From contig NZ_CP139713.1 of assembly GCF_034377145.1 (NCBI RefSeq), positions 1 through 48,252 on the forward strand: a stretch of 48,252 nucleotides of DNA. The letters are read 5' to 3'. Below are positions 23,853-42,168 of this stretch, one piece after another (the stretch's first letter is position 1; each line of letters begins with the position of its first letter). Position numbers and translations under genes: made by a program. This DNA comes from Sulfitobacter sp. OXR-159. GTDB lineage: Bacteria > Pseudomonadota > Alphaproteobacteria > Rhodobacterales > Rhodobacteraceae. A model generated the notes under the pieces. It ran no database searches. It saw nothing but the letters and a program-made list of their open reading frames with translations, and was not told where the DNA came from.

Positions 23853-23854
23853 GT

Positions 23855-26487: not shown

Positions 26488-26510
26488 TGTGGTATATTTT
26501 TCATACCACA
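26488..26510. promoter_or_regulatory. operator-like perfect dyad between glcD and the GntR regulator
   Basis: Arms TGTGGTAT and ATACCACA form a perfect 8-bp inverted repeat around a 7-bp AT-rich centre. TGGT/ACCA half-sites are typical of FadR-type GntR regulators, although the spacing here is wider than the classic one. It sits 70 bp before the glcD start and 84 bp before the regulator start. Confidence 0.65.
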
Positions 26511-26593
26511 GATAGTCAATGATATAATTATCAGTCCACCGCGATGCGGTTGTTAGATTTTTCAAAACATCCTAGATTCGACACAACAATCAA

Positions 26594-27385
26594 ATGAGCA
26601 TCATATTCGCCATGTCCGTAAAAACCGAACGCGCCGCCGAAGCCGTAGCCGAACACATCGAATCGCTGATCTTAGAAGGTTCATTGCGCGCAGATGAACG
26701 TTTGCTACCAGAACGGGAACTCGCCGAGCGGTTGAATATCTCGCGCTCGACCTTGCGCGATGGGCTGAAGATTTTGGAAGAGCGTGGATTACTTTCCAGC
26801 ATCGAAGGGCGCGGCACCAACGTTGCGCAGTTGGGTACCACCGCGATTGCGGACCCCCTGATCGCTTTGCTCGTCCGCCACGCCGAAGCTGCCGATGATT
26901 ATCTGGAGTTTCGCGGTATCGTCGAAAGCTCAGCTGCAGCCTTGGCTGCCATCCGCGCCACCGATGTTGAACTAGACCGCATCCGAGTATGTCTGGATCG
27001 TATGGACCGCGCCCATACCGATGCCGATGCCAACGAGGAGACCGAAGCGGATGCCGAACTGCATCTGGTGATCTATGAAGCCAGCCACAACCTGACACTG
27101 CTACAGATCATGCAGGCACTCTCAGGGGTTTTACGCTCGGACGTTATCCACAACCGCGATCGCCTTTACGCAGTGCCCGCCATCAGAGAATTGCTACGCG
27201 AACAGCACCATGCGATCGCCAATGCCATCATCGCACGCGATTCCAACGCCGCTCGGCAGGCTGCGGACGAACACATCAGCTATCTGCGACAAGCCAGCCA
27301 TGAAATCCGGAAGGCGCAAGCCCGGCTCGACTTGTCACTGCGCCGTCTGAACGGAGGTAGTACAAAAGGACGCATCGTCCGATAG
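26594..27385 (+). CDS. GntR/FadR-family regulator (GlcC-like)
   Basis: A 263-residue regulator with an N-terminal winged helix-turn-helix (about 15-80, ERELAERLNISRSTLRDGLK, then LEERGLLSSIEGRGTNV) and an all-helical FCD effector domain (about 95-240, with Asp, His and Arg residues that bind metal and ligand). It is divergent from glcDEF, so it most likely senses glycolate or a related acid and controls that operon. A second start (MSVKTERAAE at 26612) is equally possible. The gene is less GC-rich than glcDEF. Its last 110 bp are overlapped on the other strand by the broken end of a DUF262 gene. Confidence 0.88.
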   Translation: MSIIFAMSVKTERAAEAVAEHIESLILEGSLRADERLLPERELAERLNISRSTLRDGLKILEERGLLSSIEGRGTNVAQLGTTAIADPLIALLVRHAEAADDYLEFRGIVESSAAALAAIRATDVELDRIRVCLDRMDRAHTDADANEETEADAELHLVIYEASHNLTLLQIMQALSGVLRSDVIHNRDRLYAVPAIRELLREQHHAIANAIIARDSNAARQAADEHISYLRQASHEIRKAQARLDLSLRRLNGGSTKGRIVR

Positions 27386-28838
27386 GAGAAAAATAAAGCC
27401 TATCAGGTCGCTGAAATAATCGCGCCGCCGGTATGTTTTCCTCTTCAGGGCGTATGTTGACAATGTTGTTGGCCTCCTCTTCAGAGACCCCTGCCTTTCT
27501 CAGGAAGGCACGGGGGAAAAAATGATGATAGTTTTTGCTATTTGCCTGCTTCAACCAGTAATTGCTGATATTGACGATCCCATTGTCATTGAATGACAGA
27601 GGCTGCTGGTAAGCCATGACGCACAAAATCGCCTTGGTGAAGCTTCGACCTGCGTTGAACCAACCATTCTCCACCAAAAATTCGGGGGAAACGTCGATAC
27701 CCCAATCGTAATCCGCCGACCCACCGTTCAGGATGAGCTCGATCCGATTGACGTCCTGTGCGAGCTTGCTCTCGACGGACGACGAATAGCGACCACCCAG
27801 AGAACAGCGCCAGAAGAAATCTTCGAGTTCTAGCTTCTGATCAAGGGATGGTTTCTTGTTGCCGTTGTGATAGAAAAAATAAGCGAAGGGCACGATCAAG
27901 GTCAGATACGGCAACATCTGTGAAACAGGTATTCGCATGACGTTGCGAAAGTATTCGACCGCCTTCTCCACGCTATCAATAGCCGCTGGCCAAATCTCGA
28001 TGAAGGCATCTTTCTCAAGCTTCAGGATCGCCTGCCGCTTGCAATCCTTCTTCATGATAAGAGCTATGAGCTGAAGGATCGTTTGATCTGAGATTGTTTC
28101 ATAGTCTATTGGGGCGAGGCGTTCGATCAACTCCGAGTATTTCTCGGACAGATCGAAGCCTTGTTTTTCATCATAAGTCTTGGCAACCATGATCTCGAAC
28201 ACCGTCAGAGGCTTGCCGCCAACATTGATCCGCGTGAAAATTTCGGTTGCTACGTCGATCGGCACATTGCGCACTTCGATGATCGAGAAGTCGTAGGCTT
28301 CAATCCGGCGCTTGTATTCATCAAGCCTAGCGTGGTGTTCTTGGGGGAACGCCGCAAGAGTTGTCAAACTACCGTAGAGCAGATCGGTGAGGCGAATGAA
28401 CGTGTTTGCGGGCAGATCGGTGATGTCAGTAGTGACGATTGTATCCGACTCGCCAGCACTGAGGTCGATGTAGATCTCCGAAAAATCCGTACATTGCCCG
28501 CTTTCGCGGACAATCTCTAAGCCCTTCATAGCGGCAAAAAGGCTTGTCAGCCGTTGCTGGCCATCCAGCACGAAGGAGACGGTTTCTCCCTTCTTGGCGG
28601 CGGGAAGTTTGGTGTTTCCAAGTTCCTTCACACTGCGCAGACGCTCCCGCGTCAACCAGAATATGAAGGTGCCGATCGGATACCCTTTGACCACACTATC
28701 AAGCAGTTCGGCAGAACGTTGAAGCGTCCAGACAAAATCCCTCTGAAATTGAGGAATTTTAATCTCTCCGTTTTCAATGTTGCTAATAAGTGTTGTATAA
28801 TTCTTGTGCGTAGGTTGGGGTAGTTCCATGCCACTCAT
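27276..28838 (-). pseudogene. DUF262 (GmrS-like) protein, C-terminus lost
   Basis: The N-terminal DUF262 domain is clear: IPQFQRDFVWT near residue 28 and FVLDGQQRLTSLFAA near 90, the nucleotide-binding DGQQR motif of GmrSD-type modification-dependent nucleases. The C-terminal part reaches KNYHHFFPRAFLRKAGVSEE (HNH-like) and then NNIVNI near residue 462. Beyond about base 27450 the frame reads unrelated sequence and finally the antisense of the glcC gene. The usual C-terminal tail of about 100 residues is missing, so the gene has been cut by whatever joined it to the glc cassette. Relatives act in phage defence; this copy is probably non-functional. The start could also be the ATG at 28829. 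Confidence 0.78.
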
Positions 28839-28852
28839 GCCTTAACTTAAAC

Positions 28853-28869
28853 GCATGCAAGCATGCTTA
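28853..28869. repeat. GCATGC-type repeat flanking parAB, copy 1
   Basis: GCATGCAAGCATGCTTA, a near-palindrome made of two GCATGC hexamers, lies just after the stop of the small parB-like gene. A nearly identical copy, differing at one base, lies at 29869-29885 on the other side of parA. Paired sites of this kind may be centromere or partition sites. Confidence 0.6.
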
Positions 28870-29115
28870 CGTGTTTTGCGCTTTGTAAGCTTTCCACATC
28901 TTCAGGAAAAGCCGCTTCTTTGCGCCATGGCTAAAGCCATACTCCCTGCCCGCTTGTTCGCTGAATTCTTCGAACACAGTGACAGGCACACGGACTTGAA
29001 TCGGCCGCTGTGGCTCCTTTTCGCCGCGTGTGTCTTCGTTAATTACATCAGGCGCTGCATCGGGCTTAGGTGGCGCGCCCTTACTGCTTTTGAGCTTGGT
29101 GATATTCGTGGTCAT
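28867..29115 (-). CDS. small partition partner protein (ParB-like)
   Basis: An 82-residue basic protein. The first 35 residues are polar and proline-rich, and the rest (IQVRVPVTVFEEFSEQAGRE) reads like a ribbon-helix-helix or similar DNA-binding unit. Its start overlaps the parA stop by one base (TAATG), the standard arrangement for ParA with a small unrelated centromere-binding partner. I infer that it binds the partition site of replicon 1. Confidence 0.75.
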   Translation of the reverse strand: MTTNITKLKSSKGAPPKPDAAPDVINEDTRGEKEPQRPIQVRVPVTVFEEFSEQAGREYGFSHGAKKRLFLKMWKAYKAQNT

Positions 29116-29768
29116 TACGCCACCTGCCTTTCTTGAAGTTCGACCATCTTGTCGATCATGCTCTGCGCCAGCTTAGAGGCCCGCTGGTTCAAGGTGCGAA
29201 ATGAGGTTTCCGTAATGGCCTTACCCGCGTCCGAGGCTGATCCATATGCCGTTGAGACACCTACGTCCCCGTCAAGTACCATATAGCCTGCTTCAGTAAG
29301 ATACTGCCGTGCGGCGGCATTCTCGCGCTCGCTTCCCGTGGTCTTAAACATGGCAAAGGCGATCTTCTCAGATGAGACGCCTTTTTTGCGCAATGCATGC
29401 GCCAGCACGACGCCAGGATGCAGATCGTCAACTGTTTGCCCTGTTGGAATCACGACGAGGTCAGCCGCCTCTGCAATCTCAGCGGTTTGATCCGACGCGT
29501 TCGGCTTACCATCAAGGATCAACGCATCGAAGCGCGGCGCTTCGGCAAGGGCGGTCTTTACCGTGGCAAAACTCTGCACCTGAAGTTCAGGAGTGACGCC
29601 GGCTTCGGCGCGGCGTCCTGCCCAATGGGTGCATGTTTGCTGCTGTGTGTCGAGGTCTGCTATCTTAGTGGTAAGGCCACCGGCGACGAATTCTCTCGCC
29701 ATCATGCGCGCGAGGGTGGACTTCCCCACACCGCCTTTCTGGGACACCATCCCGATAATGTAAGTCAT
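29115..29768 (-). CDS. parA: ParA-family partition ATPase (replicon 1)
   Basis: A 217-residue small ParA without an N-terminal helix-turn-helix (type Ib). The deviant Walker A motif KGGVGKST is at residues 11-18, ALILDGKPN is the Walker B region and LVVIPTGQTVDDL follows. It segregates plasmid copies together with the small downstream partner. The module sits between repA and the truncated DUF262 gene. Confidence 0.93.
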   Translation of the reverse strand: MTYIIGMVSQKGGVGKSTLARMMAREFVAGGLTTKIADLDTQQQTCTHWAGRRAEAGVTPELQVQSFATVKTALAEAPRFDALILDGKPNASDQTAEIAEAADLVVIPTGQTVDDLHPGVVLAHALRKKGVSSEKIAFAMFKTTGSERENAAARQYLTEAGYMVLDGDVGVSTAYGSASDAGKAITETSFRTLNQRASKLAQSMIDKMVELQERQVA

Positions 29769-29868
29769 ATCTGCTGCTCCGATCTGCCAAATCGCTATTT
29801 TTTCTCATGTTAACACGCTTAATTCAATCGCGCCAAGCATGTTAGCGACTTTTCCACAAAGGCATAAT

Positions 29869-29885
29869 GCATGCCAGCATGCTTA
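29869..29885. repeat. GCATGC-type repeat flanking parAB, copy 2
   Basis: GCATGCCAGCATGCTTA, the partner of the repeat at 28853, in the same orientation. A third partial copy (AAGCATGTTAG) lies at about 29835-29845. It sits between parA and the 3' end of repA and overlaps the repA stop region. Confidence 0.6.
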
Positions 29886-30932
29886 GCGCTTGTGCGCGCC
29901 GCGCCTTTTGCAGAAGGCAAGGAAGTGCTTGTCGGGATTTTTAACTGAAATCACTTTTTTGAGGACCCACGCGCGCCATTCCTCTTCGAGGTAGTGGATG
30001 TCCCACCCAGGGGCGAGGCGGCGCGCACCTTCATGCGTGTCGGGCGCAAGGCACAAGGACGAGAGCTGCAAGGGCACGCCATTCTGGCGTGTTGACTTCT
30101 TCGGTCGAACAATCACAATGTCTTCTGCCATCGTGAAGGTATAGTCAGGCATGTGATCATGCTGACCATCATCGTCGATGATCTTGCCGAGTAATCGACG
30201 AAATTCCTTCACCCTTGAGCTCGACCCGCATTTGTCGCGCAAGAGCTCAAGGCCGATCTTCCACACGGGTTGCGCCCCGCAATGCTTACGCGCGATTTCA
30301 TAAAGGCGTCGCTCCAAGGGCTTTCGCAGGAAGAAATACTGCCTGTTGAGGGTCAGAACATTGTTGTTTTCGATGGCGTCGAATACCCAATCAGCAAGTG
30401 TGATCTCGACATCAAGCATGCGTCCATCGCGTGTCTCACGGACAATTTCAAAGGCGCTGATGAGCCCGAAAGCACTTAAGTGTTCTTTGCCGCCTTGGCG
30501 GATACTCGTCTCGATTTCGGTGCCTTTTAGGCGGCGCAAGGCATCGCGTAGGAGCTCGTAACCACGCCCCGAAGTCTGACGGTTGGTCGCAACCAGCAAG
30601 TCATGCGCCTTGAATCGCACATGGCGGCTGACCTTTCGGCCTTCATTGAGCGCCCCGATACATTGGCTAATACAGTAAATCAGAATGTCCCGATCATGCA
30701 CGGTTGCGAGCCCCTGTCGGGACGGCGCAATCTGAATCCAGTTCTCGCCACGCTCATAGCGGCGGGTGCGCATATCAGGCTTGGTCGAGAGCGAGAATAC
30801 AGGGTTTTCCATAGACGCCATGTCAGCCTTTGGCACGGCATCCAAGATATCGCAAACGAACAGATCTCGCTGCGGATGTCGGTCCGGCAGGAGCGGCGAA
30901 CGGGCAGGAAGTACAGCGCTTTCATTCGACAT
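29883..30932 (-). CDS. repA: replication initiator protein RepA, RPA family (replicon 1)
   Basis: A 349-residue plasmid replication initiator of the RPA (replication initiator protein A) family found on alphaproteobacterial plasmids. Segments shared with the second, broken repA in this window include MASMENPVFSLSTKPD, HDRDILIYCISQ, RFKAHDLL, REPLERRLYEIARKHCG-like text and RRLAPGWDIHYLEEEWRAW. Winged-helix pairs that bind iterons are expected. ATG at 30932 chosen; a GTG nine bases upstream lies in iteron-like sequence. Six iterons stand directly upstream. Confidence 0.93.
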   Translation of the reverse strand: MSNESAVLPARSPLLPDRHPQRDLFVCDILDAVPKADMASMENPVFSLSTKPDMRTRRYERGENWIQIAPSRQGLATVHDRDILIYCISQCIGALNEGRKVSRHVRFKAHDLLVATNRQTSGRGYELLRDALRRLKGTEIETSIRQGGKEHLSAFGLISAFEIVRETRDGRMLDVEITLADWVFDAIENNNVLTLNRQYFFLRKPLERRLYEIARKHCGAQPVWKIGLELLRDKCGSSSRVKEFRRLLGKIIDDDGQHDHMPDYTFTMAEDIVIVRPKKSTRQNGVPLQLSSLCLAPDTHEGARRLAPGWDIHYLEEEWRAWVLKKVISVKNPDKHFLAFCKRRGAHKR

Positions 30933-30958
30933 TTTACACACCAGCTTTCGACTAAGAA

Positions 30959-31126
30959 TTCGTCACTTCACACACCTTGGCGTCACTTTCGTCATTTCAC
31001 ACACCTGTCGTCAAGATTCGTCACTTCACACACCCTCTCAGCCTGTGGGTAACTTTGCAAGCTCTTCGTCACTTCACACACCACGATTCGTCACTTCACA
31101 CACCACGATTCGTCACTTCACACACC
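30959..31126. promoter_or_regulatory. replication origin, replicon 1: six iterons
   Basis: Six copies of an 18-bp iteron TTCGTCACTTCACACACC, one with a single change, start at 30959, 30988, 31017, 31065, 31087 and 31109. The last two are 22 bp apart, a two-turn phase. TGTGGGTAA at 31044-31052 is a near-match to a DnaA box in reverse. A partial copy (TTTTACACACC) lies at the repA start, which suggests autoregulation. An AT-rich stretch at 31127-31260 is the likely unwinding region. Confidence 0.9.
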
Positions 31127-31347
31127 TTTTTTACAAAAGAGACTCTATTCCTCCTGTTTTTTCAACACGTTATCATCGTCCCTGAATAGTGTAACTCTAT
31201 ATTAACTTAATTTAACTCTCTCACTGCTCTTCAAAATAACCTCAACATTATGGTTCCCACCAAGACCCACATAGGGACACGTTAGCAAACAAGGGCGGGC
31301 AAGGGGCGGCTCTCAAAGCCGCAACCACAGCACACCCGCTGGACGCG
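31127..31347. other. AT-rich region next to the iterons
   Basis: No gene. Runs such as CTATATTAACTTAATTTAAC make this a plausible DNA unwinding element for the iteron origin. The part from 31262 on is less AT-rich and may hold the promoter of the following plus-strand gene. Confidence 0.5.
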
Positions 31348-32100
31348 GTGGCCGATAAGATCGCCAAAACGATCCAGCCGCCAGAAAAACGCACGGACGG
31401 TTTGCCGGTCGGGTCTCAGGCCAAATTCATAGAAGCGGCAAAGTGCGCGGCCATTCTAGGTTTTCCGATCAACACGCTTCTCACTGTTCGCTGGTCGTCG
31501 CTCTACCATCACGACAACGCCAATCCCCTTTTTGCACAATCACCCGTCGAGCGAATTGCCTACCTGGTCGAGTTGCTGAGAAAATGGATCGGCGCACGGT
31601 GTCGCGGCGGCTTCCAGTATCTTTGGGTGCGCGAAGCAACCTCAGAGCTGGGCGAGCACTGGCATCTCGCCTTTCATTTGCCGCATGGGAAGCGAAAAGC
31701 CATCGCATCCTACCTCTCCGATCTTCTTGGCGAACCCTTAGATCACACGCCCCGCACCAAGGCGCAGGGGCGAACAGAAGGTGAGTTCGCATGTAGCGTC
31801 TGGGGATCATGGCACCTTGCGAAGGACACACACCCGGAACGATCCGGCTTTTACCTCGCAGCCTATCTCGGGAAGGGCGAACCGTCTGAACGCATGTTTC
31901 GCGGCAAACTCGTTCCCAACACCCGCAAGCTGGTCATGGGGCAGGCATTCGGTGGCCGCGAAAGGTCTGGCCGATACGACACGCCGCAGGGGCAAATCAG
32001 GGGCACAAATGCACTCAAGAAACGGTTCGACATTGCCCGCCCGCTCAAACAGGCCGTGAAAGCGCGCCAGAGCGGCGATTTAAGCGGCATGAGGGGCTGA
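31348..32100 (+). CDS. HUH-like replication or inovirus Gp2-like protein
   Basis: A 250-residue protein of uncertain family. FQYLWVREATSELGEHWHLAFHLPHG has the HUH shape: a strand, then His-x-His in the next strand. A possible catalytic Tyr lies in GFYLAAYLGKGEPSE. This resembles the YagK/YfjJ or inovirus Gp2 group and some rolling-circle initiators (recognition, not search). The start is likely the GTG at 31348, without a strong ribosome site, so the true N-terminus may differ. It stands just beyond the origin of replicon 1, so an auxiliary replication role is possible. Confidence 0.6.
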   Translation: MADKIAKTIQPPEKRTDGLPVGSQAKFIEAAKCAAILGFPINTLLTVRWSSLYHHDNANPLFAQSPVERIAYLVELLRKWIGARCRGGFQYLWVREATSELGEHWHLAFHLPHGKRKAIASYLSDLLGEPLDHTPRTKAQGRTEGEFACSVWGSWHLAKDTHPERSGFYLAAYLGKGEPSERMFRGKLVPNTRKLVMGQAFGGRERSGRYDTPQGQIRGTNALKKRFDIARPLKQAVKARQSGDLSGMRG

Positions 32101-32257
32101 GGTATGGGTCAAGGGTGCCAAAAGCAAGAAAGGCGCTCAGCGGCGCTATCTGTGCCTCTCAGGGCCATATCCAAAATTACCCGTTTCTAAGTATTGGCAG
32201 CGTGGAACCGATACCGGGCAAGTTTCCAAATGATTTCGGCAAAATCTGAGGTGAGGC

Positions 32258-32869
32258 ATGGGCGGCGTAGGTAGCGGGCGACACTGGCAGTTTGGGGCAG
32301 ACACAACGGACGATTATCGCTCGATCGACATTCGGTGGCTGAAACGTGAGGGGCTTCTGGATTCCGGGATCAGCCGCCGCATCACCTGGTCGCGCGGTGG
32401 CGAGGTGACAGGCTCGATCAATGTCCAGTCAGAGCCGGGGCGGGTGATCCTGGACTATCGCCACCGGGATCGAGGCGGGGAATGGCAACCCGAACGCTAT
32501 CCCGTCTATCTCGACACCACGCCCTGTCACATGGGCGGCGAGCGGCATTGGTTCCTCTGCCCTGCCCGTGGGTGCGGTCGCCGTGTCGCCATTCTCTACG
32601 GCGGGGCAATCTTCGCGTGCCGTCATTGCTACCGGCTGGCCTACCCTTCTCAGCGGGAAAAGCCGGGGGATCGAGCTGCACGGCAGGCGAATCGCATCCG
32701 GGACAAAATGGGCTGGCCTGGTGGCATCCTTGAAGGTGGTGATTGGGGCAAGCCCAGGGGAATGCACTGGCGCACCTATGAGCAGCTTTGCCAGGAACAC
32801 GACGCCCTGTCAGATCGCGCCCTCGTCGGGATCATGGATCACCTGAACCTCTTGTCTGGTCGTTTCTAA
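32258..32869 (+). CDS. zinc-ribbon protein of unknown function
   Basis: A 203-residue protein starting MGGVGSGRHWQFGADTT. Four Cys in CPARGCGRR and FACRHCYRLAYPSQR form a zinc-ribbon pair at about residues 107-133. Proteins with this exact opening recur on phage and plasmid segments of proteobacteria, without known function. The C-terminus converges on and overlaps the end of abiEii by 38 bp. AGGTGAGGC lies before the ATG. Confidence 0.75.
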   Translation: MGGVGSGRHWQFGADTTDDYRSIDIRWLKREGLLDSGISRRITWSRGGEVTGSINVQSEPGRVILDYRHRDRGGEWQPERYPVYLDTTPCHMGGERHWFLCPARGCGRRVAILYGGAIFACRHCYRLAYPSQREKPGDRAARQANRIRDKMGWPGGILEGGDWGKPRGMHWRTYEQLCQEHDALSDRALVGIMDHLNLLSGRF

Positions 32870-33653
32870 AGTAGGCGGATTTATAGGTGATGAAGGTGGC
32901 AGTGTCACGGCTACGGCATTTCTCGATCAGCGTGGTCAGAATGGCCGTTTTGTCAGCCCCGCTGAAATCGTGCTCACCAATCAGAAAGGCGATATCGTAG
33001 ACGTCTTGTCGCCGGTTGCGCTTGCGTACGGGTTGCTGAAGCAGCGCCCGGAACTTTTCGGCGATAAGCTCGTGGATGGTGAACGCGCGCACCGCCACAC
33101 CAGCGCCGTGCAGGTTCAACTCCTGGAAGGCGTAAACCTGATCGCGGAAGCTGATCTCCACATCCAGTACTCGGCTTGCCTTGCCATCCGCCAGCCGGGC
33201 CTCTTCACCTGTGCCGCGCTTGGCCGAGCCAATTCGGACCCGGAGTGCGGGAAAGTCGTGGTCCTCAAAATTCTCTGCGCGAGGTATCTTCTTCACCGAT
33301 TGCACCTGGCAGAGAAGATCGAGATAGCCAAGCTTGATTGCTGTTTGCGGCAGAAGCTCGTTCAGCTCGGTGGTGATCTTTTCCATCAGGTCGGCAGGTT
33401 CTGCCATCGACGTGAAATCCACATCCCCGGTGACCCGGTTGCTTTTGAAAGCCAGTGCCATGACCGCCCCGCCCTTCAAGACGAGCGTTTTCGAGAGTGA
33501 CGGAGCCAACCCGATTGCCCCTAGGACAATCTCGGTAACCTGACGATCTCTATAGAGTGACGGGTTCGCGCGGGCGGCTTCGACCCATGCACGGACATCG
33601 ACATCGACAATGTCGAATTTGCTATCTTGAACATGGGGGTCGGCATCAGACAT
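32832..33653 (-). CDS. abiEii: AbiEii-type nucleotidyltransferase toxin
   Basis: A 273-residue protein of the AbiEii/AbiGii family. The nucleotidyltransferase signature LVLKGGAVMALAFKSNRVTG is followed by GDVDFT, providing the metal-binding Asp pair at about residues 78-83. ELIAEKFRALLQQPVRKRNR, then RQDVYDIAFLI, is the typical family C-terminal motif. It is the toxin half of a type IV toxin-antitoxin and phage-abortive system. Its start overlaps the antitoxin gene by 8 bp. Confidence 0.9.
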   Translation of the reverse strand: MSDADPHVQDSKFDIVDVDVRAWVEAARANPSLYRDRQVTEIVLGAIGLAPSLSKTLVLKGGAVMALAFKSNRVTGDVDFTSMAEPADLMEKITTELNELLPQTAIKLGYLDLLCQVQSVKKIPRAENFEDHDFPALRVRIGSAKRGTGEEARLADGKASRVLDVEISFRDQVYAFQELNLHGAGVAVRAFTIHELIAEKFRALLQQPVRKRNRRQDVYDIAFLIGEHDFSGADKTAILTTLIEKCRSRDTATFITYKSAYFRNDQTRGSGDP

Positions 33654-34527
33654 TTATTGAAATCATCCAGCGTTCTGAGAATTCAGGGGCATATTCGGCA
33701 TCAGGGTCGAGTTTTCGCGACCCACCCCGTTGAGCAAACTGCTCCCACTTGTGCAGCGCCGGGTTATCTATGTCCATGACTTCAGATAGAATATAGCCCG
33801 CCCGGACTTTGGCGATCTTGCTGTCCAGTTGATCAATTGCGGCAATAATTTCCGGCACCCACTGGACCGCCTCGTTTTCCCAGACATCGAGAACATGCTG
33901 CATGCCACCACAAAGTTGCGGCTCGTCCACCATGTCTGCGAAGGTTTGACCGATCGAGGTTATCCGCGTTTCCTCACCGCTGACGGGGGACGGTGTCGAT
34001 GGGTGGCTTGACACATGCACCACGATTGGGCGGCGACGAATCGTGTCTTTGAAGCCAGGCTTGTTTAGAACAGGTCTTTCGATCTCGTCCAGATCGGGCA
34101 AGTCTTTTTGGAGGCGCTCATCCCGGAGTGCATTCCAGAGCGGGCGCTTTGGGGTTGTCAGGTGCAGCGCCTGTGGGCTGCGATCAGTGAGACCATAGCG
34201 CTGCATGGCAGACAGATGAGAGACGTAGGCGAAGGGATCAGCGATGCAGGCGACCTCTTCTGCCGAACCAGCTCTCGTTGATTGCGTGACACGCCAAACG
34301 CCCGAGCGGAAGTCAGAGTCCATGACAAGCGCCTTCCGCGCTTCCAAGCGGCGCAGCGCATTTTTGGCGCGCGTCTGATCCCAGCCCTGCGGAAGGCGCT
34401 TCAAAGGTTCGTCGCTCAGCGCCTTCTTTAGGAACAGATTGTAACCTAAAACGAAAAAATCGTAGAAGGTTACAATCGGTAAGTCCTTGTCAGTAATGAA
34501 TTTCTCAAGACCTTCCGTAAAGTTCAT
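33646..34527 (-). CDS. abiEi: AbiEi-type antitoxin and autorepressor
   Basis: A 293-residue protein directly upstream of and overlapping abiEii. The body pattern (AFVYVSHLSAMQRYGLTDRS-like text, ALHLTTPKRP, RITSIGQTFADMVDEPQLCG, HVLDVWENEA) matches AbiEi. The N-terminal part should bind DNA. AbiEi proteins repress their own promoter through inverted repeats; a 43-bp perfect palindrome lies 61 bp upstream. In the AbiE system the antitoxin blocks the nucleotidyltransferase without stable complex formation. Confidence 0.88.
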   Translation of the reverse strand: MNFTEGLEKFITDKDLPIVTFYDFFVLGYNLFLKKALSDEPLKRLPQGWDQTRAKNALRRLEARKALVMDSDFRSGVWRVTQSTRAGSAEEVACIADPFAYVSHLSAMQRYGLTDRSPQALHLTTPKRPLWNALRDERLQKDLPDLDEIERPVLNKPGFKDTIRRRPIVVHVSSHPSTPSPVSGEETRITSIGQTFADMVDEPQLCGGMQHVLDVWENEAVQWVPEIIAAIDQLDSKIAKVRAGYILSEVMDIDNPALHKWEQFAQRGGSRKLDPDAEYAPEFSERWMISINV

Positions 34528-34587
34528 CAGATGTCCTTACATGCCAAGAACAGCTATCACATAATGACAGCAAGGCGCATTAATGCA

Positions 34588-34630
34588 AGCGGGGTAGCTA
34601 TATGTCCTTAGGACATATAGCTACCCCGCT
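34588..34630. promoter_or_regulatory. 43-bp perfect palindrome upstream of abiEi
   Basis: Arms of 21 bases (AGCGGGGTAGCTATATGTCC plus T, and the exact complement) around a single central base. ATGTCCTTA recurs at about 34533, next to the abiEi start, which fits two binding sites for one repressor. It is the probable AbiEi operator and could fold as a cruciform. It could also terminate the WGR operon, since both operons read leftward through it. Confidence 0.8.
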
Positions 34631-34653
34631 AAGATGTAAACAATAATCTCACT

Positions 34654-34911
34654 TCACCCAAACATCCTTAATTGCTGAGGCTCCACCCAGTAGCCGCGCC
34701 GACGCTTCGAGGCTTCCAACATGATCAGAGCCGCGACGGCCTGGTTCTCGTCCGCAAACCACTCCATGCGGACCTGACCGCCCTGCCCTATCCGTCCCCA
34801 TTCTCGGTAGAGCGTCCACTCACCGAACAGGTTGGGCATGACGGCCATCCGGTAGAACCGGGCGACGTTCTTCGCAGGCTGGCGCTTTTCGAGATAGGTC
34901 TGCATGGTCAT
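34654..34911 (-). CDS. WGR-domain protein
   Basis: An 85-residue protein consisting of little more than one WGR domain: FYRMAVMPNLFGEWTLYREW followed by GRIGQGGQVRMEWF, with the Trp-Gly-Arg triad itself. WGR domains bind nucleic acids in PARPs and bacterial proteins. It overlaps the recombinase gene by one base, so both are made together. It could assist the recombinase on DNA (inference). Confidence 0.88.
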   Translation of the reverse strand: MTMQTYLEKRQPAKNVARFYRMAVMPNLFGEWTLYREWGRIGQGGQVRMEWFADENQAVAALIMLEASKRRRGYWVEPQQLRMFG

Positions 34912-35546
34912 CAGAGATGATACTTACGGGCGATTTCCAGAGCTTCGGCCTGTTCGGTGCCGATGTATTCCTTGGTGCTCTCAATACTGGCATGGCCGAG
35001 CAGCAGCTGGGCTGCGCGCAGATTGCCGGTTTGCTGATAGATATGGGTCGGAAAGGTCCGGCGTAATGAGTGCAGGCCATAGAGGCTGGAATCGAGGCGG
35101 GCCTTTTCCAGCCAGGATTTGAACAGACGCCAGAGCTGGCTTTCGCTGAGATGGGTGTGCGCCCACCTTGCCCCCTGCCCGGTGAACAGCCAGCCATGCA
35201 GCGGCTTTTCAGAGGCGGCGAGGTAGGCGCGCAGGCTATCGCGTGTGCCCGAGGACAGCCGCGCCTGGACCGGGCGCGCATTGCGCGTCTCGGTTTTCTT
35301 CTGGCGGATTTCCACGATCTCCCGAACCCCGGCAGGAGTGGCCACATCCGAGACCCGCAACCGGACGAGGTCCGAGCCCCGGAAGCTGGTATCAAGTGCG
35401 GTGTTGAACAGCGCCAGATCGCGCAAGGCGCGCTCCTGGCGCAACAGCAGCCGGATCAGCACGACCTGGTCGGGCGTGAGCGGGGGTTTCTTGCCCACCA
35501 CGCGGCCCTTGTTCCAGGTGGTCTGTGAGGCAGCAAGCATGCGCAA
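34911..35546 (-). CDS. tyrosine recombinase (integrase), short form
   Basis: A 211-residue catalytic-domain recombinase. The active-site residues are visible: Arg in TSFRGSDLVRL, His-x-x-Arg in GLHSLRRTF, His in LLGHASIESTKEYIG and the nucleophile Tyr in KEYIG. The separate N-terminal arm or SAM-like domain of phage integrases is almost absent, so this belongs to the short plasmid type that may resolve dimers or promote integration. It is translationally coupled to the WGR gene downstream. ATG start could be at 35546 or 35540. Confidence 0.9.
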   Translation of the reverse strand: MRMLAASQTTWNKGRVVGKKPPLTPDQVVLIRLLLRQERALRDLALFNTALDTSFRGSDLVRLRVSDVATPAGVREIVEIRQKKTETRNARPVQARLSSGTRDSLRAYLAASEKPLHGWLFTGQGARWAHTHLSESQLWRLFKSWLEKARLDSSLYGLHSLRRTFPTHIYQQTGNLRAAQLLLGHASIESTKEYIGTEQAEALEIARKYHL

Positions 35547-35793
35547 ATCCTTGCAGGGTTCTTAGGAAGGATAATCATAAACCTTGCATAAAGGAAGGGG
35601 TCGATCACGGAAGGCGCAGCTTTCTCCATGTTTTATTGACCCTTCAGTCATCGTGATCATGCAAGCTTCTAATCAAAAGCTCGCATGAAGGGTCGCAGAG
35701 AAGAAAGTGGTTCGGACAGCGTTCGGGTTGCGTTCGTGGACGCTCATGATTGTGCCTAGGATAATCTTCCCATCAGCAACATGGAGTGATCTG

Positions 35794-36480
35794 ATGGAAG
35801 TTATGGAACGAAATGCCGAGTATATCGCTGCCCAGTGTAAGTATCTTCGTAAGATGCTTGGGCTGACCCAAGAGAACCTTGCAGATGCTGCCGGGCTAAC
35901 TGTCCGCACGATCCAAAAGGTGGAGAGCGGACGGCATGTGCCTGACGTTCAGACTTTGCGGAGTATTGCTCGCGGCATTGGGTTCGACGTGACTGTGTTC
36001 GCCAAGCCTACACCCGAGCAGGAGAAGCGTCAGCAAGAAGAGATTGAGCGTGCGCTGAAAAAAACTGCCCTCGTGCCCACATCGCCCATTAAGAAGGCGA
36101 ATGACTTCTACTCCCGTAACCGTGAGTGGCACGCGCTCATGATTAATGCCGAGGCAGTGGAGGCGGACGACGCGCTCGAATTGACAGCGGCAATCTCAGA
36201 ATGGATGAACGACCTTGACGGGATATGGGGGATCAGCACAGCCAGCCAGCGGCTGGGGTATGCGACCAGCATTTCCCAGTTGTGCCAGGAATTGGAAGGG
36301 CTTGGGTATCTCACCCACTTTGGCCATTTTCGTCAGCAGCACATGCGGGACAAAAATCTGGCCTGGGACGTGGCGTTGATCACTTTTTTGCCAAAGGCTG
36401 ACCATGATGGGCACCGTTACGGCCTCGTCACCCTCGACGATCCCTGGGAGGTTCCCGAACAGGACCGTCCTAAACTGTGA
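35794..36480 (+). CDS. XRE-family HTH regulator with unknown C-terminal domain
   Basis: A 228-residue protein. The N-terminal HTH (residues 9-62, YLRKMLGLTQENLADAAGLT, then VRTIQKVESGRHVPDVQTLR) is standard Cro/CI type. The remaining 160 residues are helical and charged with an ISEWMNDLDGIWGISTASQR segment; I recognise no domain. The start at 35794 is backed by GGAG 7 bp upstream; the open frame to 35707 has no ribosome site. Single gene, reading toward the YefM/YoeB pair. Confidence 0.85.
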   Translation: MEVMERNAEYIAAQCKYLRKMLGLTQENLADAAGLTVRTIQKVESGRHVPDVQTLRSIARGIGFDVTVFAKPTPEQEKRQQEEIERALKKTALVPTSPIKKANDFYSRNREWHALMINAEAVEADDALELTAAISEWMNDLDGIWGISTASQRLGYATSISQLCQELEGLGYLTHFGHFRQQHMRDKNLAWDVALITFLPKADHDGHRYGLVTLDDPWEVPEQDRPKL

Positions 36481-36540
36481 TCAACGCGTGGGGGCAGTCT
36501 GTCATTCAATTAGGCCACCCATGTCGCGCGACCTCTTTAC

Positions 36541-36561
36541 TTGTACTTAATATTGTACATA
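36541..36561. promoter_or_regulatory. YefM-type operator
   Basis: TTGTACTTAATATTGTACAT carries two TGTAC half-sites, close to the TGTACA core bound by YefM/YoeB. It sits 26 bp before the antitoxin start, overlapping the likely promoter. AAAGGAG at about 36574 is the ribosome site. Confidence 0.65.
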
Positions 36562-36586
36562 TAGAGGGAAGCAAAGGAGAGTTGAC

Positions 36587-36838
36587 ATGGATGTTATGAC
36601 CTACTCAGACGCACGAGCTCAACTGAAGGGCGTCATGGATCGAGCGATCCACGACAAGCAGGAAGTTGTCGTGACGCGCAAGAAGGGCGAGTCCGTTGTG
36701 GTCGTGTCCTTGGACACTTGGAACGCCGTCAACGAGACGTTGCACCTCTTGTCCACACCGAAAAACGCATCCCGCTTGCGCGCGTCGATCGCGCAACTCG
36801 ATGCTGGAACTGGCGAAGAGCGTGAGCTGACCGAGTGA
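36587..36838 (+). CDS. yefM: YefM/Phd-family antitoxin
   Basis: An 83-residue antitoxin. The N-terminus MDVMTYSDARAQLKGVMDR and VVVSLDTWNAVNETLHLL are the classical YefM pattern: Phd fold plus flexible toxin-binding tail. It binds the YoeB toxin and represses the operon at the TGTAC-containing operator. Its stop overlaps the toxin start by four bases (GTGA). Confidence 0.93.
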   Translation: MDVMTYSDARAQLKGVMDRAIHDKQEVVVTRKKGESVVVVSLDTWNAVNETLHLLSTPKNASRLRASIAQLDAGTGEERELTE

Positions 36839-37101
36839 AGCTGGTTTTTTCCGATCAGGCCTGGGAAGACTATCAATACTGGGTCAACACCAACGACAAG
36901 GTACGCGACCGGATCAACGATCTGATCAAGCAGTGCAAGCGGACCCCCTTCAAGGGAACCGGCAAGCCGGAACCTTTGAAGGGCGATTTGACCGGCTGGT
37001 GGTCACGGCGGATTTCTAAGGAAGATCGAATGGTCTACCGGGTCAGGGGAGCTGGCGATGGCCAAAGCCTAGAGATTGCGCAACTGCGGTTCCATTACTG
37101 A
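36835..37101 (+). CDS. yoeB: YoeB-family mRNA interferase toxin
   Basis: An 88-residue RelE-fold toxin that cleaves translated mRNA at the ribosome. Catalytic residues can be seen: Glu in KPEPLKGDLTGWWSRRI, Arg in the same stretch, and the C-terminal His-Tyr pair (FHY). The GTG start overlaps the antitoxin stop. It maintains the plasmid by killing or stalling segregants that lose the antitoxin supply. Confidence 0.94.
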   Translation: MKLVFSDQAWEDYQYWVNTNDKVRDRINDLIKQCKRTPFKGTGKPEPLKGDLTGWWSRRISKEDRMVYRVRGAGDGQSLEIAQLRFHY

Positions 37102-37159
37102 AAACCCTTAGGGTTGAAAGACTTAGATGTGATGTCGAACAGCTCAAAGCACTCCCGAA

Positions 37160-37231
37160 TTTAACTCTAACTATGTCGTTAAAGTTAACTCTATAATTAG
37201 TGTTAACGACATAGTTGACGTTAGAGTTAAA
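37160..37231. promoter_or_regulatory. partition-site/operator dyad upstream of the second parA
   Basis: Two nested inverted repeats: TTTAACTCTAAC (37160-37171) with its complement at 37220-37231, and AACTATGTCGTTAA (37169-37182) with its complement at 37203-37216. A further GTTAACTCTATAA lies between them. It is AT-rich and sits 18 bp before the parA start. It is a good candidate for parS and autoregulatory operator. Confidence 0.75.
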
Positions 37232-37249
37232 CGAAGGCAATCTACCGCC

Positions 37250-37978
37250 ATGTATGTAATCACCTTCGCAAACCCGAAAGGCGGCTCGGGGAAAACTACG
37301 TCCGCCATGCTCTTGGCTGAACAGATCGCTATTTCTGGCGGTCGCGTAGCGATTCTCGATCTGGACCCAAACGCCAACATCCTTGCATGGGCCCAGACGC
37401 GCGAAGCCGAGGGTAGAGACGTTCCTTTCACAGTTCATGCGCGACCGCAGGCCGAAGAGACGGTCGAGCTCATCGACAACCTATCCGACGAGGCTGACTA
37501 TCTCATTATCGACCTTGAAGGGTCGAAGGATCAGATCGTCACTTTCGCGCTATCGCGGACAGATTTGTGCATCATCCCGCTCGATGGCTCGCCTATGGAA
37601 GCCCGGCAAGCCGCGCAAGCGGTTCGCTTGGTACAAACCACAGCAAACATGATCCGCGCGCAAATCAACTACGCTCTCTTGTTCACTCGCACCAACGCCG
37701 CGTTCCAGACCACGGATGAGCGCGACGTGCGGCAAGAAATGGAGCTCAACAACATCCCGACGCTACCCGTTCGGATCGCCAAGCGCGCGCCTTACACCCG
37801 CATCTTCCGGGACGGTGTGCTCTTGTCAGAGCTGCCTGACATCGTGACGCAAGAAATGCAGGGCAAAACCGCGTCTGTATCCGACAAGGCCATGAAGCAG
37901 GTGACCGGAGCCATCGAGAATGCCCGCGACTACGCACAAACCGTCATTGCAACCCTTACCAAGGAGCAAGTGGCATGA
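37250..37978 (+). CDS. parA: ParA-family partition ATPase (replicon 2)
   Basis: A 242-residue ParA of the short type. Walker A NPKGGSGKTTSAM is at residues 7-19, the Walker B region is DYLIIDLEG near 85 and LCIIPLDGSPMEARQA follows. It differs clearly from the ParA at 29115. It belongs to the second replicon, whose repA is broken by IS21. Downstream parB-like gene overlaps by four bases. Confidence 0.93.
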   Translation: MYVITFANPKGGSGKTTSAMLLAEQIAISGGRVAILDLDPNANILAWAQTREAEGRDVPFTVHARPQAEETVELIDNLSDEADYLIIDLEGSKDQIVTFALSRTDLCIIPLDGSPMEARQAAQAVRLVQTTANMIRAQINYALLFTRTNAAFQTTDERDVRQEMELNNIPTLPVRIAKRAPYTRIFRDGVLLSELPDIVTQEMQGKTASVSDKAMKQVTGAIENARDYAQTVIATLTKEQVA

Positions 37979-38289
37979 TTGGGAAATACGGCTTCTCAGG
38001 CGGGATCGACCTGCCCAAGACAACACCAGCACCCAAGCCTCGGCCAAAGGTCGATGGCAACTCATTAAGCGAGGCCGTCAGGGCCGGTGCCGATCTTGGC
38101 TTCGTCAACAGGGAGCCAACGACGCGCCTCAAACCTGGCCCCAAACGCAAAGAGCCGCAGGACAAAGTTTCGATACCTGGCCCGAAGCGCGTGGTGGATG
38201 ATTTCCGGGCTTTTTGTTCAACGCGCGATCTTACCCTTTGGCAGGGCTTGGAGTTGTTGCTTGAAGAGCAGAAGGGTAGAAGCGGCTAA
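37975..38289 (+). CDS. small partition partner protein (ParB-like, replicon 2)
   Basis: A 104-residue basic, proline-rich protein starting within the parA stop (ATGA). The C-terminal part VSIPGPKRVVDDFRAFCSTR with DLTLWQGLELLLEEQ looks like a short DNA-binding unit of the RHH kind. It should bind the dyad before parA. It ends 4 bp into the convergent repA fragment. Confidence 0.75.
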   Translation: MIGKYGFSGGIDLPKTTPAPKPRPKVDGNSLSEAVRAGADLGFVNREPTTRLKPGPKRKEPQDKVSIPGPKRVVDDFRAFCSTRDLTLWQGLELLLEEQKGRSG

Positions 38290-39010
38290 GGGTTGCCGCG
38301 TTTCTCAAAGATTTTCCGGCAGAACCCTAAGAATGCCCTGTCCGGGTTGGCCGGTGCATCGAGGCCACCGTCGGACATCCATTCGCGCCATTCTTGCTCT
38401 AGCGTGTAGATATCCCATCCCGGCGCAACCTTACGGGCTTCCTGATAAACGTCAGGGCTCAAACGGATCGCCCCGGATGGAACCGCCAGAGCTTGCGGCT
38501 TTTCCGCGTGACGGTTTACAAATACGACCATGTTTTCGTCTAACCGGACTGAATAGTCCGGCATATGATTGTACGCCTCATCTTGAGCGACAATGTTGCC
38601 GACCAGCCGCTTAAACTCGCGAGAGGTCGAAGCCGATCCGCACTTGTCTTGCAAAGCAGAAAGACTGATTTTCCACTCTTTCTTCGAGCCACAGTGCTTG
38701 CGAGCGATCTCATAGATGCGCCGCTCTAATGGCTTACGCAGCCGGAAATAGTTCCGGTGGAGGGTCAAAACTTCATGCGCTTGGATCGCGTTGAACACCC
38801 AATCTGAGAGCTGCACCTCGATCTCCTGCATCCGACCATCGCGGGTTTCACGTACGATGCGAGCGCGGTCGATGATGCTGAAAATATCCAATTGCTCGAC
38901 ATCGCCGGTCACGATGTTCGTCTCAACCTGTGTCCCTTGCAGCCGGGCGAGGGCGCTTCGAAGGCCGCTATATCCACGCCCATCCGATGGCCGGTTCGTT
39001 GCTTTCAGAA
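38286..39010 (-). pseudogene. repA: RPA-family repA (replicon 2), C-terminal part, split by IS21
   Basis: About 240 residues corresponding to the C-terminal two thirds of an RPA replication initiator: LKATNRPSDGRGYSGLRSAL, then PLERRIYEIARKHCG and PGWDIYTLEQEWREW. The N-terminal third is found at 41482-41830 on the same strand, and the two parts join exactly once the IS21 element and one 9-bp repeat are removed (DLLK then ATNRPSDGRG). The gene is therefore a disrupted repA, and this replicon should be unable to initiate by itself. Confidence 0.92.
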
Positions 39011-39117
39011 TGTGAATCGGCATGCGAAATTGACCCACTTGGGTGGGTTATGAGCGTGCAAAATTGACCCACCTGCCACGTTAGCATCCGCGCTGGATAG
39101 CGCGGAGGAATGAGCAG

Positions 39118-40626
39118 GTGATATTGATGGAAAGTGTATCGAAGATCCGTCGTTGGATATTGGTTGAGGGTCGCAGCATCCGATCTGTGGCGCGGGCAAC
39201 CGGTTTGTCGCGGAACACGGTGAAGAAGTATCTGAAGGACGACAGTCCACCGAGCTATCAGCGGCAAGCGCCACCGACCCGGCATAAGCTGTGCGATGGA
39301 TTTGATGCGCGGCTCCAAGAGCTTTTCGAGCAGGATCACAAGCGCCCGCGCCGGGAGCGGCGGACGGCCACGAAGCTTTACGAACAGCTCGTCTCGGAAG
39401 GGTATACTGGGTCCTATTCTCCGGTTCAGCGATTTATCCGAGACCTCAAACGTGCCGATGCTGGATCGGGAGAGGCGTTTATCCCCCTGCATTTTGCTGC
39501 CGGTGATGCGCTCCAGTTTGACTGGAGCGAAGAGCGCGTTGTTCTCGGTGGTGTCGAGCAGAAGGTAAAGGTTGCCCACTTCCGCCTGTGCCATAGTCGC
39601 AAACCTTTTGTCGTAGCCTATCCCGGCGAGAGCCAAGAAATGGTGTTGGATGCCTTTGTACGGGCGCTGTCCTTCTACGGCGGGGTTCCGCGACGGGTGA
39701 TCATCGACAATCCCAAAACGATGGTGACCTATGTCTCCCGCTCGAAGGACCGAGTGTTCCATCCCCGGTTCCTGGCATTGATGAACCACTATGTAATGGA
39801 GCCGGTTGCCTGCACCCCCGCGTCGGGTTGGGAGAAAGGTCAGGTGGAGAACCAGGTCCATTTTTTACGAGGCCGATTGTTTGTTCCCATGCCAGCTTTT
39901 GATGATCTGGATGGGCTGAACAACTGGTTGCGTCTGCGCTGCGAGGAATTGGCAAGCCGCGCCCACCCTGAACAATCGTCCCGCACGATTGCGGAGGTTT
40001 TTGAAGATGAGCGCGCCGAGCTGCGCCCCCTGGGGCGGGCTTTTGATGGCTACGTGGAAAAGACGGTGCGGGTCCGTTCCACCTGCCTGGTTCAATATGC
40101 CAGCAATCGCTATAGCGTGCCTTCCCGGTTTGCAGGCCAGCATGTCTCCTTGCGCGCCTATGCGAGCCGGATCGTGCTGGTGTCAGGCCAGGACGTTATT
40201 GCCGAGCACAAGCGTCGCTTCACCCGCAACGTCAGCTACTTTGAACCTTGGCATTATGTTCCTCTACTGGATCGCAAGCCCGGCGCTCTGCGCGACGGCG
40301 CCCCTTTTGTGGACTGGCAACTGCCTGAGGCCATGCATCGGATCAGGGAGCATTACATGGCTGGCAAAGGCGGGGACCGGGAGTTCGTCGATCTGCTTCT
40401 ACTGGCCCAGGACCACGGGATCGAGGTGGTGGAGACGGCCTGCGAACTGGCAGTTGAACAAAACACGTTGCGCCTTCCTGCCATCACCAATCTGATCAAC
40501 CAGTTGGTGGAGCCAATCATCACGCCGTTGAATGAGGGCAATGTCTATCCGCAGCTGACCGTGCGGCCCGAGGCCGACTGCAAGCGCTATGAGGCGCTCT
40601 GCTCGGCCGAGGAGGCTGCCGCATGA
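39118..40626 (+). CDS. istA: IS21-family transposase IstA
   Basis: A 502-residue transposase. The N-terminal helix-turn-helix is [20 protein letters not shown], the first catalytic Asp is in [12 protein letters not shown], the second in [11 protein letters not shown] and the Glu in [15 protein letters not shown]. Start is GTG 39118 (or ATG 39127); GGAGG lies upstream. It overlaps istB by four bases, as usual. Confidence 0.95.
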
Positions 40627-41354
40627 ACGCTCTCATCGACCAACTGACCGCCTTGAGGCTGCATGGAATGGCAGCTTGCGCCCATGATTTGCTGTCCGCG
40701 CGCAAGCCACCAAGTCTGACCACAGCGATAAAGCAACTGATCGACGCGGAAACTGTAGAGCGGCGGGTGCGTTCCATCCAGTATCAAATGCGCATCGCGA
40801 AGTTCCCCCATCATAAGGACTTCGCCACCTTCGATTACGGCGCGGCCGCGGTGAGTAAGGCCCAGATCGAACCCTTCTGCTCGGGTCAGTTCACCGAAGA
40901 GGCGCACAACCTCATCTTGGTCGGCGGAACCGGGACAGGCAAAACGCACATCGCCATCGCGCTTGGAACCACATTGATCAACAACGGCAAGAAGGTCCGC
41001 TTCTTCAACGCGGTCGATCTGATCAATGCCCTGATCAAGGAACAGGCCGACGGCAATGCCGGGAAGATCATCCGGCAGCTGTCGGCTCTGAATTGCGTCA
41101 TCATCGACGAGTTGGGCTACATTCCGTTCCCGAAATCCGGCGGCGCGTTGCTGTTCCACCTGATCAGCAAGCTCTACGAGAAAACCAGCGTCATCATCAC
41201 CACCAACTTGGAGTTCGGGGAATGGGTCGCTGTCTTCGGTGATGCCAAGATGACAACTGCGCTCTTGGATCGCGTCACGCACCACTGTGCCATCATCGAA
41301 ACGGGCAACACGTCATATCGCTTCGCTCAGAGCAAAAGTCGCAGAGAAAAATAG
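40623..41354 (+). CDS. istB: IS21-family ATP-binding helper IstB
   Basis: A 243-residue AAA+ ATPase related to DnaC. Walker [15 protein letters not shown] is near residue 101 and Walker [13 protein letters not shown] near 158. It selects target DNA and activates IstA. Start ATGA overlap with istA. Complete. Confidence 0.95.
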
Positions 41355-41369
41355 CCGCGTCGCAAGCAA

Positions 41370-41415
41370 AGCCCCCAGACGGACTCGCTATATGAGGGCG
41401 GTCCGCCTGGGGGCT
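41370..41415. terminator. hairpin after istB
   Basis: AGCCCCCAGACGGAC pairs with GTCCGCCTGGGGGCT across 16 bases, a 15-bp stem with one G-T pair. It lies 16 bp after istB. There is no long T-run on the plus strand, so it may slow outward transcription instead of acting as a classic terminator. Confidence 0.45.
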
Positions 41416-41481
41416 TTGGCACCCAATAGGCGGGTCAAAATCAAACGCTGAAACCGGGTCACTTTTAAACGCTCATTGACA

Positions 41482-41830
41482 CTTTCAGAAGGTCGAACGC
41501 CTTCAGGCGAACGATTTTTGAAACCTTCTGACCTTTGTTGATAGCTGCCATAATTTGACTGATGCAGTAGATCAGCACATCGCGATCGTGGATCGTGGCC
41601 AGACCATCGGACGAAGGTTTCACTTCGAGATAGTTTCGCCCCGTCCCATCTTCGTATCGCCGCACTCGGTAATCTGGTTTTGTAGAAAGCGAGAAAATCG
41701 GATGCGCCATCGAAGCCATGTCGCCCTTGGGTGCGGCATCAAAGATATCGCATACAAAAAAGTCGCCTTGTTCCTGCCGATCTGGCAGCAAGGGAGAGCG
41801 GTCGCCGTCTTTCGTGATTTCACACACCAT
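41482..41830 (-). pseudogene. repA: RPA-family repA (replicon 2), N-terminal part
   Basis: About 115 residues matching the start of RepA: SPLLPDRQEQGDFFVCDIF, APKGDMASMAHPIFSLSTKP, HDRDVLIYCISQ. It parallels the intact RepA of replicon 1 line by line. The frame runs a few codons into IS21 and stops at 41465. The start codon lies within the first iteron of the origin. A short peptide may still be made; it lacks both winged-helix domains. Confidence 0.9.
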
Positions 41831-41960
41831 GACCTATGTTTCGTGATTTCACACACACGGTCAAGCCCTTTCGTGATTTCACACACATGCACAGAGCTTT
41901 CGTGTCTTTACACACGTTCTTTCGTGTCTTTACACACGCTTTATCGTGACTCTACACACA
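41811..41960. promoter_or_regulatory. replication origin, replicon 2: six iterons
   Basis: Six iteron copies, the first three close to TTTCGTGATTTCACACAC and the last three diverged (TTTCGTGTCTTTACACAC and TTATCGTGACTCTACACAC), spaced about 22-30 bp. They begin at approximately 41811, 41840, 41870, 41899, 41921 and 41943. The 3' half is shared with the iterons of replicon 1 (TTCACACAC) while the 5' half differs. The first copy overlaps the repA start, which suggests autoregulation. Coordinates may be off by one base. Confidence 0.88.
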
Positions 41961-42004
41961 GGCCACTTCTAAAAGCCTAATGAATTCATAGGACTATGAA
42001 CACT

Positions 42005-42013
42005 TATCCACAG
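42005..42013 (+). promoter_or_regulatory. DnaA box
   Basis: TTATCCACA is a perfect consensus DnaA box, 45 bp beyond the last iteron. The next 45 bp (CATTATATAACACATATTTA and onward) are strongly AT-rich and suit an unwinding element. This supports a complete origin of replicon 2 even though its repA is broken. Confidence 0.85.
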
Positions 42014-42168
42014 CGTAACACATTATATAACACATATTTAACACTACAAAATTACTCCGCATTTCGCATGCAAGTTCCAAGCTAAGTAGTACGGACGAAC
42101 ACATCTAGAGAGCATGGAGCACCACGCAATTTCACACAGAAACCCGATCAACTGACGATTCTAGCTGC

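Follow-up and report, generated by a model that had tools for sequence, protein, structure and literature searches.

Loss of one replicon is the expected fate of composite plasmids, and to our knowledge its first step is seldom caught. Here we analyze the 48,252-bp contig NZ_CP139713.1 of Sulfitobacter sp. OXR-159 (hereafter the window), which is the entire contig C7 of a genome assembled into 8 contigs (4.42 Mb in all, estimated completeness 100%). It carries two replicons with initiators of the RPA family (PF10134): the repA gene of replicon 1 (repA1) is intact, and that of replicon 2 (repA2) is split by an IS21-family insertion sequence (IS). The window is an unusually fresh example of a process known from other plasmids.

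According to PMC11983097, the FII replicon of the F plasmid of Escherichia coli is inactive through a transposon insertion. As in the window, a multireplicon plasmid has one replicon killed by a mobile element while another maintains it; in that account, however, the F replicons are of unlike families, whereas both replicons here are RPA and the interrupting element belongs to the IS21 family. The plasmid pMM259 of Martelella mediterranea, described as a fusion of two alphaproteobacterial plasmids whose authors foresee the decay of one module (PMC5613091), is likewise a composite, but its modules are of the RepABC type, both were functional in its authors' tests, and the portion of the paper drawn on here reports no replicase insertion. 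A Roseobacter composite, pRosmuc_A123 of Roseovarius mucosus (PMC4511512), resembles the window in that a RepA replicase lies close to a MobA-type relaxase and a second VirD4 is present; it differs in combining RepC-7 with RepA-III instead of two RPA replicons, and no break is mentioned in the part of the report used. In S. dubius DSM 109990, four RepA-type plasmids are recorded in one strain (PMC9025767). The 42-kb plasmid of Pacificitalea manganoxidans (NZ_CP021410) and p6 of Paracoccus sp. SCSIO 75233 resemble the window in being small plasmids with two RPA initiators, but in these both RPA genes are open and of full length.

We consider it very probable that the window represents a whole composite plasmid from a member of the Rhodobacterales, with two RPA-family replicons, in which repA2 was broken after the fusion. 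Two kinds of source plasmid, a circle, an exact insertion, its recency and an intact remainder of replicon 2 can be read from the sequence itself. With intact relatives of both replicons and a fresh break at hand, redundancy, origin conflict and iteron cross-recognition become directly testable in marine bacteria.

The interrupted initiator of replicon 2

The two parts of repA2 lie on the reverse strand on either side of the IS21-family element. The 5' piece has 116 codons (41482..41830), and its open reading frame (ORF), running from 41465, matches PF10134 over profile positions 1-81 with 89.1 bits; the 3' piece has 241 codons (38286..39010), and its ORF, running to 39038, matches positions 76-228 with 185.1 bits. 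Both scores, like that of RepA1, are above the curated cut-off of 27 bits. The element itself (39011..41481, forward strand) is 2471 bp long and contains istA (39118-40626) and istB (40623-41354). The istB product matches IstB_IS21 with 249 bits and the istA product Mu-transpos_C_2 with 65.4 bits, the rve domain of the latter falling just below its cut-off (31.9 against 32.6 bits). Since contig C4 carries the same 2471 bp letter for letter, the ends of the element are fixed; the flanks of the C4 copy, checked for duplications of 3-12 bp, showed none. In repA2, the 9-bp sequence CTTTCAGAA flanks the element on both sides (39002..39010 and 41482..41490), and of the repeat lengths of 4-14 bp that were tried, 9 alone fits. 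For three Paracoccus IS21 elements, target duplications of 7-8 bp are given in PMC3281130, so that the present one exceeds their longest by one. The description of repA2 in the initial annotation, as split by IS21 with identical 9-bp sequences on each side, is hence borne out.

Neither piece contains an internal stop, and the two are in register. We translated them separately, summed their lengths and frame, and read the uninterrupted site in two natural relatives, the Roseovarius plasmid pTHAF27_c and P. aminovorans p_III, in both of which it is present. Less one 9-bp copy, the pieces come to 1065 bases, or 354 aa, equal to the intact RepA of pTHAF27_c; repA2 without the element is thus free of stops. 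Outward promoters were reported for the IS21-family elements tested in PMC3281130; for one at the left end of the present element that could serve the 3' piece, we found 0 promoter-like sites in 38900-39200, with a mean of 0.2 in shuffled sequences.

The remainder of replicon 2 is undamaged, as had been claimed for its iterons, DnaA box and parAB. Its origin, ori2, has six iterons of the TCGTGATTTCACACAC and TCGTGTCTTTACACAC variants (41809..41962), beside which a pattern search finds an exact DnaA box, TTATCCACA, on the forward strand (42004..42012). The parA2 gene (37250..37978, forward; AAA_31/VirC1/MipZ) is followed by an ORF of 104 aa on the same strand (37975..38289), which is called parB-like by its position and matches neither Pfam nor NCBIfam profiles. 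The parA-parB pair is convergent with repA. Palindromic repeats 5' of parA2 (37160..37231), slightly changed in pTHAF27_c and P. aminovorans p_III, are a candidate centromere or operator. Further upstream is an addiction pair of a YefM-like antitoxin (36587..36838, PF02604) and a YoeB-like toxin (36835..37101, PF06769), both on the forward strand.

A comparison with pTHAF27_c bears on the age of the break. The 5' piece of repA2 differs from its counterpart at 0 of 348 bases and the 3' piece at 1 of 723; parA2 differs at 0 of 729 and the parB-like ORF at 2 of 315. The five ori2 iterons compared are all identical, and in the addiction pair a single base differs in yoeB (1/267) and none in yefM (0/252). 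In the gene for the nearby coupling protein, 109 of 1674 bases differ. Because the repA2 pieces, parA2 and the parB-like ORF are nearly undiverged and an identical IS sits on C4, the insertion is very recent, and the rest of replicon 2 has not started to decay.

Two kinds of source plasmid

Replicon 1 has the gene order repA-parA-parB, all on one strand. Its RPA-family initiator, RepA1 (29883..30941, reverse), is an open frame of 352 aa that matches PF10134 with 282.7 bits over positions 1-227 of the 228 in the profile and is 92% identical to RepA of pDSM110093_d; this bears out the earlier claim that the gene is intact. Searched against the sequences of solved structures, RepA1 had no match up to E = 10. 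On the same strand are parA1 (29115..29768; AAA_31/CbiA/MipZ, with ParA_partition below its cut-off) and a small ORF of 82 aa (28867..29115), named parB-like by position, which matches no NCBIfam profile; pDSM110093_d has an ORF at the corresponding position. The origin, ori1 (30954..31126), has six iterons with the core TCGTCAYTTCACACACC, and a match to the DnaA-box pattern, TTTTACACA, lies beside it at 30932. The module from 28853 to ~31.2 kb recurs in the draft contigs L032, L033 and L034 at 83-87%. Sulfitobacter sp. DSM 110093 plasmid pDSM110093_d, which is circular, 21,520 bp long and without a second annotated RPA gene, matches the window over 27454-30932 at 86%.

Replicon 2 is found alone in the complete, 23,734-bp plasmid pTHAF27_c, which has one annotated RepA and lacks replicon 1. 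This plasmid is colinear with positions 1-10853 and 34673-48252 of the window, excluding the IS and short gaps, with long matches of 95.7-98.4%; the middle of the window is unmatched in it. The search for plasmids with each replicon alone thus returned pTHAF27_c and p_III for replicon 2 and pDSM110093_d for replicon 1. Their separate occurrence in pTHAF27_c and pDSM110093_d supports a fusion and rules out that they form a single ancient unit. The joint between the end and the start of the window matches pTHAF27_c exactly (80/80 bases); as this joint is present in a complete plasmid, the window is a circle opened at an arbitrary point. Together with the intact repA2 site in relatives, these plasmids uphold the account in the initial annotation, in which two plasmids fused and one initiator was then inactivated. 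A fusion mediated by IS21 itself is ruled out by the simple 9-bp duplication and by the replicon-2 flanks on both sides of the element.

The history we propose begins with a pTHAF27_c-like RPA/MobQ plasmid of ~24 kb, which would have acquired a block of ~22-24 kb carrying an intact replicon 1; after this fusion, the IS21-family element would have inserted into repA2. The probable acquired block (10864..32905) holds a Tn3-family transposon, IS5 copies, catabolic genes, replicon 1 and a segment known from small plasmids. Its left edge near 10863 is suggested by a truncated ISPko1-like IS5 copy that stops near 10863-10878; 588 bp of this remnant match a Paracoccus copy of ISPko1, an element listed as 1050 bp in PMC3281130. 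The right edge could lie at 32902/32906 or near 34673, where the match to pTHAF27_c ends, so that the block would alternatively extend to near 34672.

From the sequence comparisons, we prefer the right edge at 32902/32906. An abiEii-like gene (32832..33653, reverse, PF08843) changes its C-terminus at this point, with 273 aa as compared with 309 aa in Sulfitobacter alexandrii. From there, 32906-35687 is colinear with a plasmid of S. alexandrii (81.5%) and 32983-35690 with one of Paracoccus alcaliphilus (82%), and because of this colinearity the stretch of abiE, WGR and integrase genes looks like one old unit. Several points weigh against this placement and against the proposed history. In P. 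alcaliphilus, the abiE-WGR-integrase stretch lies near a replicon resembling replicon 1 (type 1, as opposed to type 2 for the replicon-2 kind), and in L033 and SCSIO 75233 p7 the integrase-WGR pair is near type-1 replicons; as such stretches sit near type-1 replicons elsewhere, abiE may have come with replicon 1. A plasmid in the exact pre-fusion state was not found in the searches made, and the block is a mosaic, which may instead have arisen by the stepwise capture of modules.

The Tn3-family transposon in the block (14118-17773) is 99.8-99.9% identical to a copy on contig C8, suggesting that it moved recently between plasmids of the same cell. Between the two replicons lies the segment common to other small plasmids (31249..32902), with a G2P-like ORF (31348-32100) and an ORF of 203 aa (32258-32869). 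These represent a third kind of plasmid, and the segment is 89% identical to pP18_i, 87% to SCSIO p9 and 89% to P. aerodenitrificans p3. Outside the shared segment, both pP18_i and p3 of P. aerodenitrificans have a 'replication initiation protein' of their own annotated; the gene table of SCSIO p9, which is incomplete, lists none. The G2P-like ORF matches PF23343 with 26.5 bits, just below the cut-off of 27.8. The segment may be a two-gene mobile unit or what remains of a rolling-circle element. Farther along, a near-perfect palindrome of 43 bp (34588-34630), perhaps a terminator or a recombination site, separates the abiE genes from the WGR gene; the plasmid of S. alexandrii has an equivalent.

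The backbone of replicon 2 resumes with a tyrosine recombinase (34911..35546, reverse, PF00589) that occupies the same place in pTHAF27_c. Beyond ori2 it includes a TraG/VirD4-type coupling protein (42736..44409, reverse, PF02534) and a MobQ relaxase (45309..46685, forward; PF03389, with NF041496 above its cut-off). An imperfect 64-bp palindrome (84%) adjoining mobQ at 45091-45154 is a candidate oriT.

Possible causes of the break

With the block in place, the plasmid would most likely replicate from ori1 with RepA1 alone, while replicon 2 retains the genes for partition and mobilization, the addiction pair and an origin that looks intact but lacks an initiator. As replicon 1 was already on the circle, repA2 would have been dispensable; its break would have been harmless, since replicon 1 maintained the circle, and would reflect redundancy rather than selection. 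This reading is supported by contigs that carry two distinct RPA genes, both intact, and the decay foreseen for one module of pMM259 (PMC5613091) is in line with it; redundancy is a simpler cause of the break than relief from conflict.

The latter cause was the one put forward in the initial annotation, in which the inactivation of one initiator would remove conflict between two origins. On such a view, two related, active iteron origins would have interfered by handcuffing and cross-titration, and the insertion would have been selected for silencing one of them. RepA1 is 53.6-55% identical to the intact RepA2 of pTHAF27_c, depending on the alignment used. In a tree of 76 RPA rows, type 1 falls in a group of 37 rows (support 100/100) and type 2 in one of 17 rows (100/96); the RPA protein encoded on C8, the third in the genome, is placed in another group. 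The tree was built from 100 RPA hits, reduced to 73 by removing identical ones and those of <300 aa, plus three rows from the window and C8, two of which duplicate loci rows; the tree program gave a long-branch warning. ParA1 and ParA2 share only 30% identity over 110 aa, and the small parB-like products of the two replicons gave no meaningful match on alignment. The sets had been described as two related repA/parA/parB sets: they are related through repA and the iterons, but their partition modules are not closely related and their gene orders differ. The parAB gene sets of both replicons are intact at the sequence level, in agreement with the idea that both partition systems were kept.

We read the iterons in 7 type-1 loci (of the window and >30 at hand) and in 6 type-2 loci, as well as in SCSIO p6 and p7. 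The core TCGTCA is present in 7/7 type-1 loci (one copy of one locus has TTGTCA) and the core TCGTG in 6/6 type-2 loci; the S. pontiacus locus has one extra type-1-like site, and in P. gallaeciensis one iteron copy was not found. The RPA gene on C8 has no iteron pattern like that of ori1 or ori2. This type-specificity of the cores argues against interference, and non-identical iterons of related Paracoccus replicons have been taken as a hint of different incompatibility groups (PMC3832669). What speaks for interference is that three of the six ori2 iterons deviate from the type-1 consensus by no more than 1-2 mismatches, which leaves room for cross-control between the origins. In the window, the sites with <=2 mismatches from this consensus are ten, all in or beside the origins: the six ori1 iterons, one next to ori1 where repA1 begins, and the three in ori2.

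Plasmids of the two kinds also co-reside. In Paracoccus sp. SCSIO 75233, the type-1 plasmid p7 (73% to RepA1, with type-1 iterons) occurs with p6, a separate complete plasmid with the gene order of replicon 2 and two TCGTG repeats, whose RepA is 66% identical to RepA2 and 60% to RepA1; its second intact RPA gene is 54% identical to its first. Both types are also found on different contigs of the draft genomes G225, G378 and G406, with identities to RepA1 of 79%, 75% and 92% and to the RepA2 piece of 95%, 76% and 69%, respectively; these are likely separate plasmids, with no circularity seen by end overlap.

Single contigs with two RPA genes point the same way. In a survey of the genus, 37 of 62 genomes had an RPA match, and five contigs, the window among them, carried two copies or remnants. 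Both copies are intact on G058:C13 and G059:C22, with pairs 45.5% and 47.2% identical, and the pair on G046:C5 is identical. G013:C7 combines an intact gene with a short RPA remnant at 38506-38715 (L109), another decayed second replicon, which fits relief from conflict but redundancy equally well. In the family, an RPA match was found in 77 of 198 genomes (that of the window included), and G209:C7 has two intact copies that are 52.6% identical. We set aside G083:C166 as a single broken copy, as well as G013:C11 (22,016 bp, with pieces at both ends) and G245:C28 (one piece starting at base 1, the other around 46.2 kb) as probable cut circles. Two open RPA genes on one contig do occur, as do broken second copies, in numbers too few for a rate. 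The intact pairs of G209:C7, G058:C13, G059:C22 and SCSIO p6 thus argue against a need to silence one origin, though none is exactly a type-1 and type-2 pair. A single insertion event, moreover, carries no statistical weight for selection. With RepAs ~54% identical, type-specific iterons, co-resident types and intact pairs, relief from conflict is an unneeded and rather unlikely explanation.

The reverse order of events, in which a replicon-2 plasmid lost repA2 first and survived through fusion with a plasmid of the replicon-1 kind, has in its favor that the searches made turned up no fused form in which repA2 is uninterrupted. A plasmid without an initiator would, however, be lost unless an intact copy helped it in trans. 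The repA2 pieces, moreover, have diverged so little that hardly any time is left for such a sequence, and IS21 did not make the fusion; we regard this order as improbable. A slightly fainter prospect, judging from the ori2 iterons that resemble those of type 1, is that RepA1 acts on both origins, either firing ori2 in trans or being titrated by it as a sink. If so, the IS21 hit would have turned the second replicon into a copy-number control element.

That the two-replicon structure is an assembly error is very improbable: repeats that could mislead an assembler are present in the Tn3-family transposon and its C8 copy and in the IS21-family element (100% to C4), but misassembly between the replicons is disfavored because 31240-34700 is single-copy in the genome except for the 43-bp palindrome within it and 46 bp that match C4, and 34700-38286 is colinear with pTHAF27_c; the assembly, moreover, has 8 contigs and an estimated completeness of 100%.

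Possible further cases of doubled replicons

Two other possible cases were seen in passing. The plasmid p5 of Sulfitobacter pontiacus (AP027377.1, L030) is a near-exact head-to-tail dimer of a replicon-2 plasmid, with halves of ~19.45 kb that are 99.7% identical; the dimer is either natural or an effect of assembly. In the genome of the window, contig G000:C5 has two genes of the RepC family (PF03428), with matches at 45423 and 115329 (L119, L120), and may be a second composite plasmid of the same genome.

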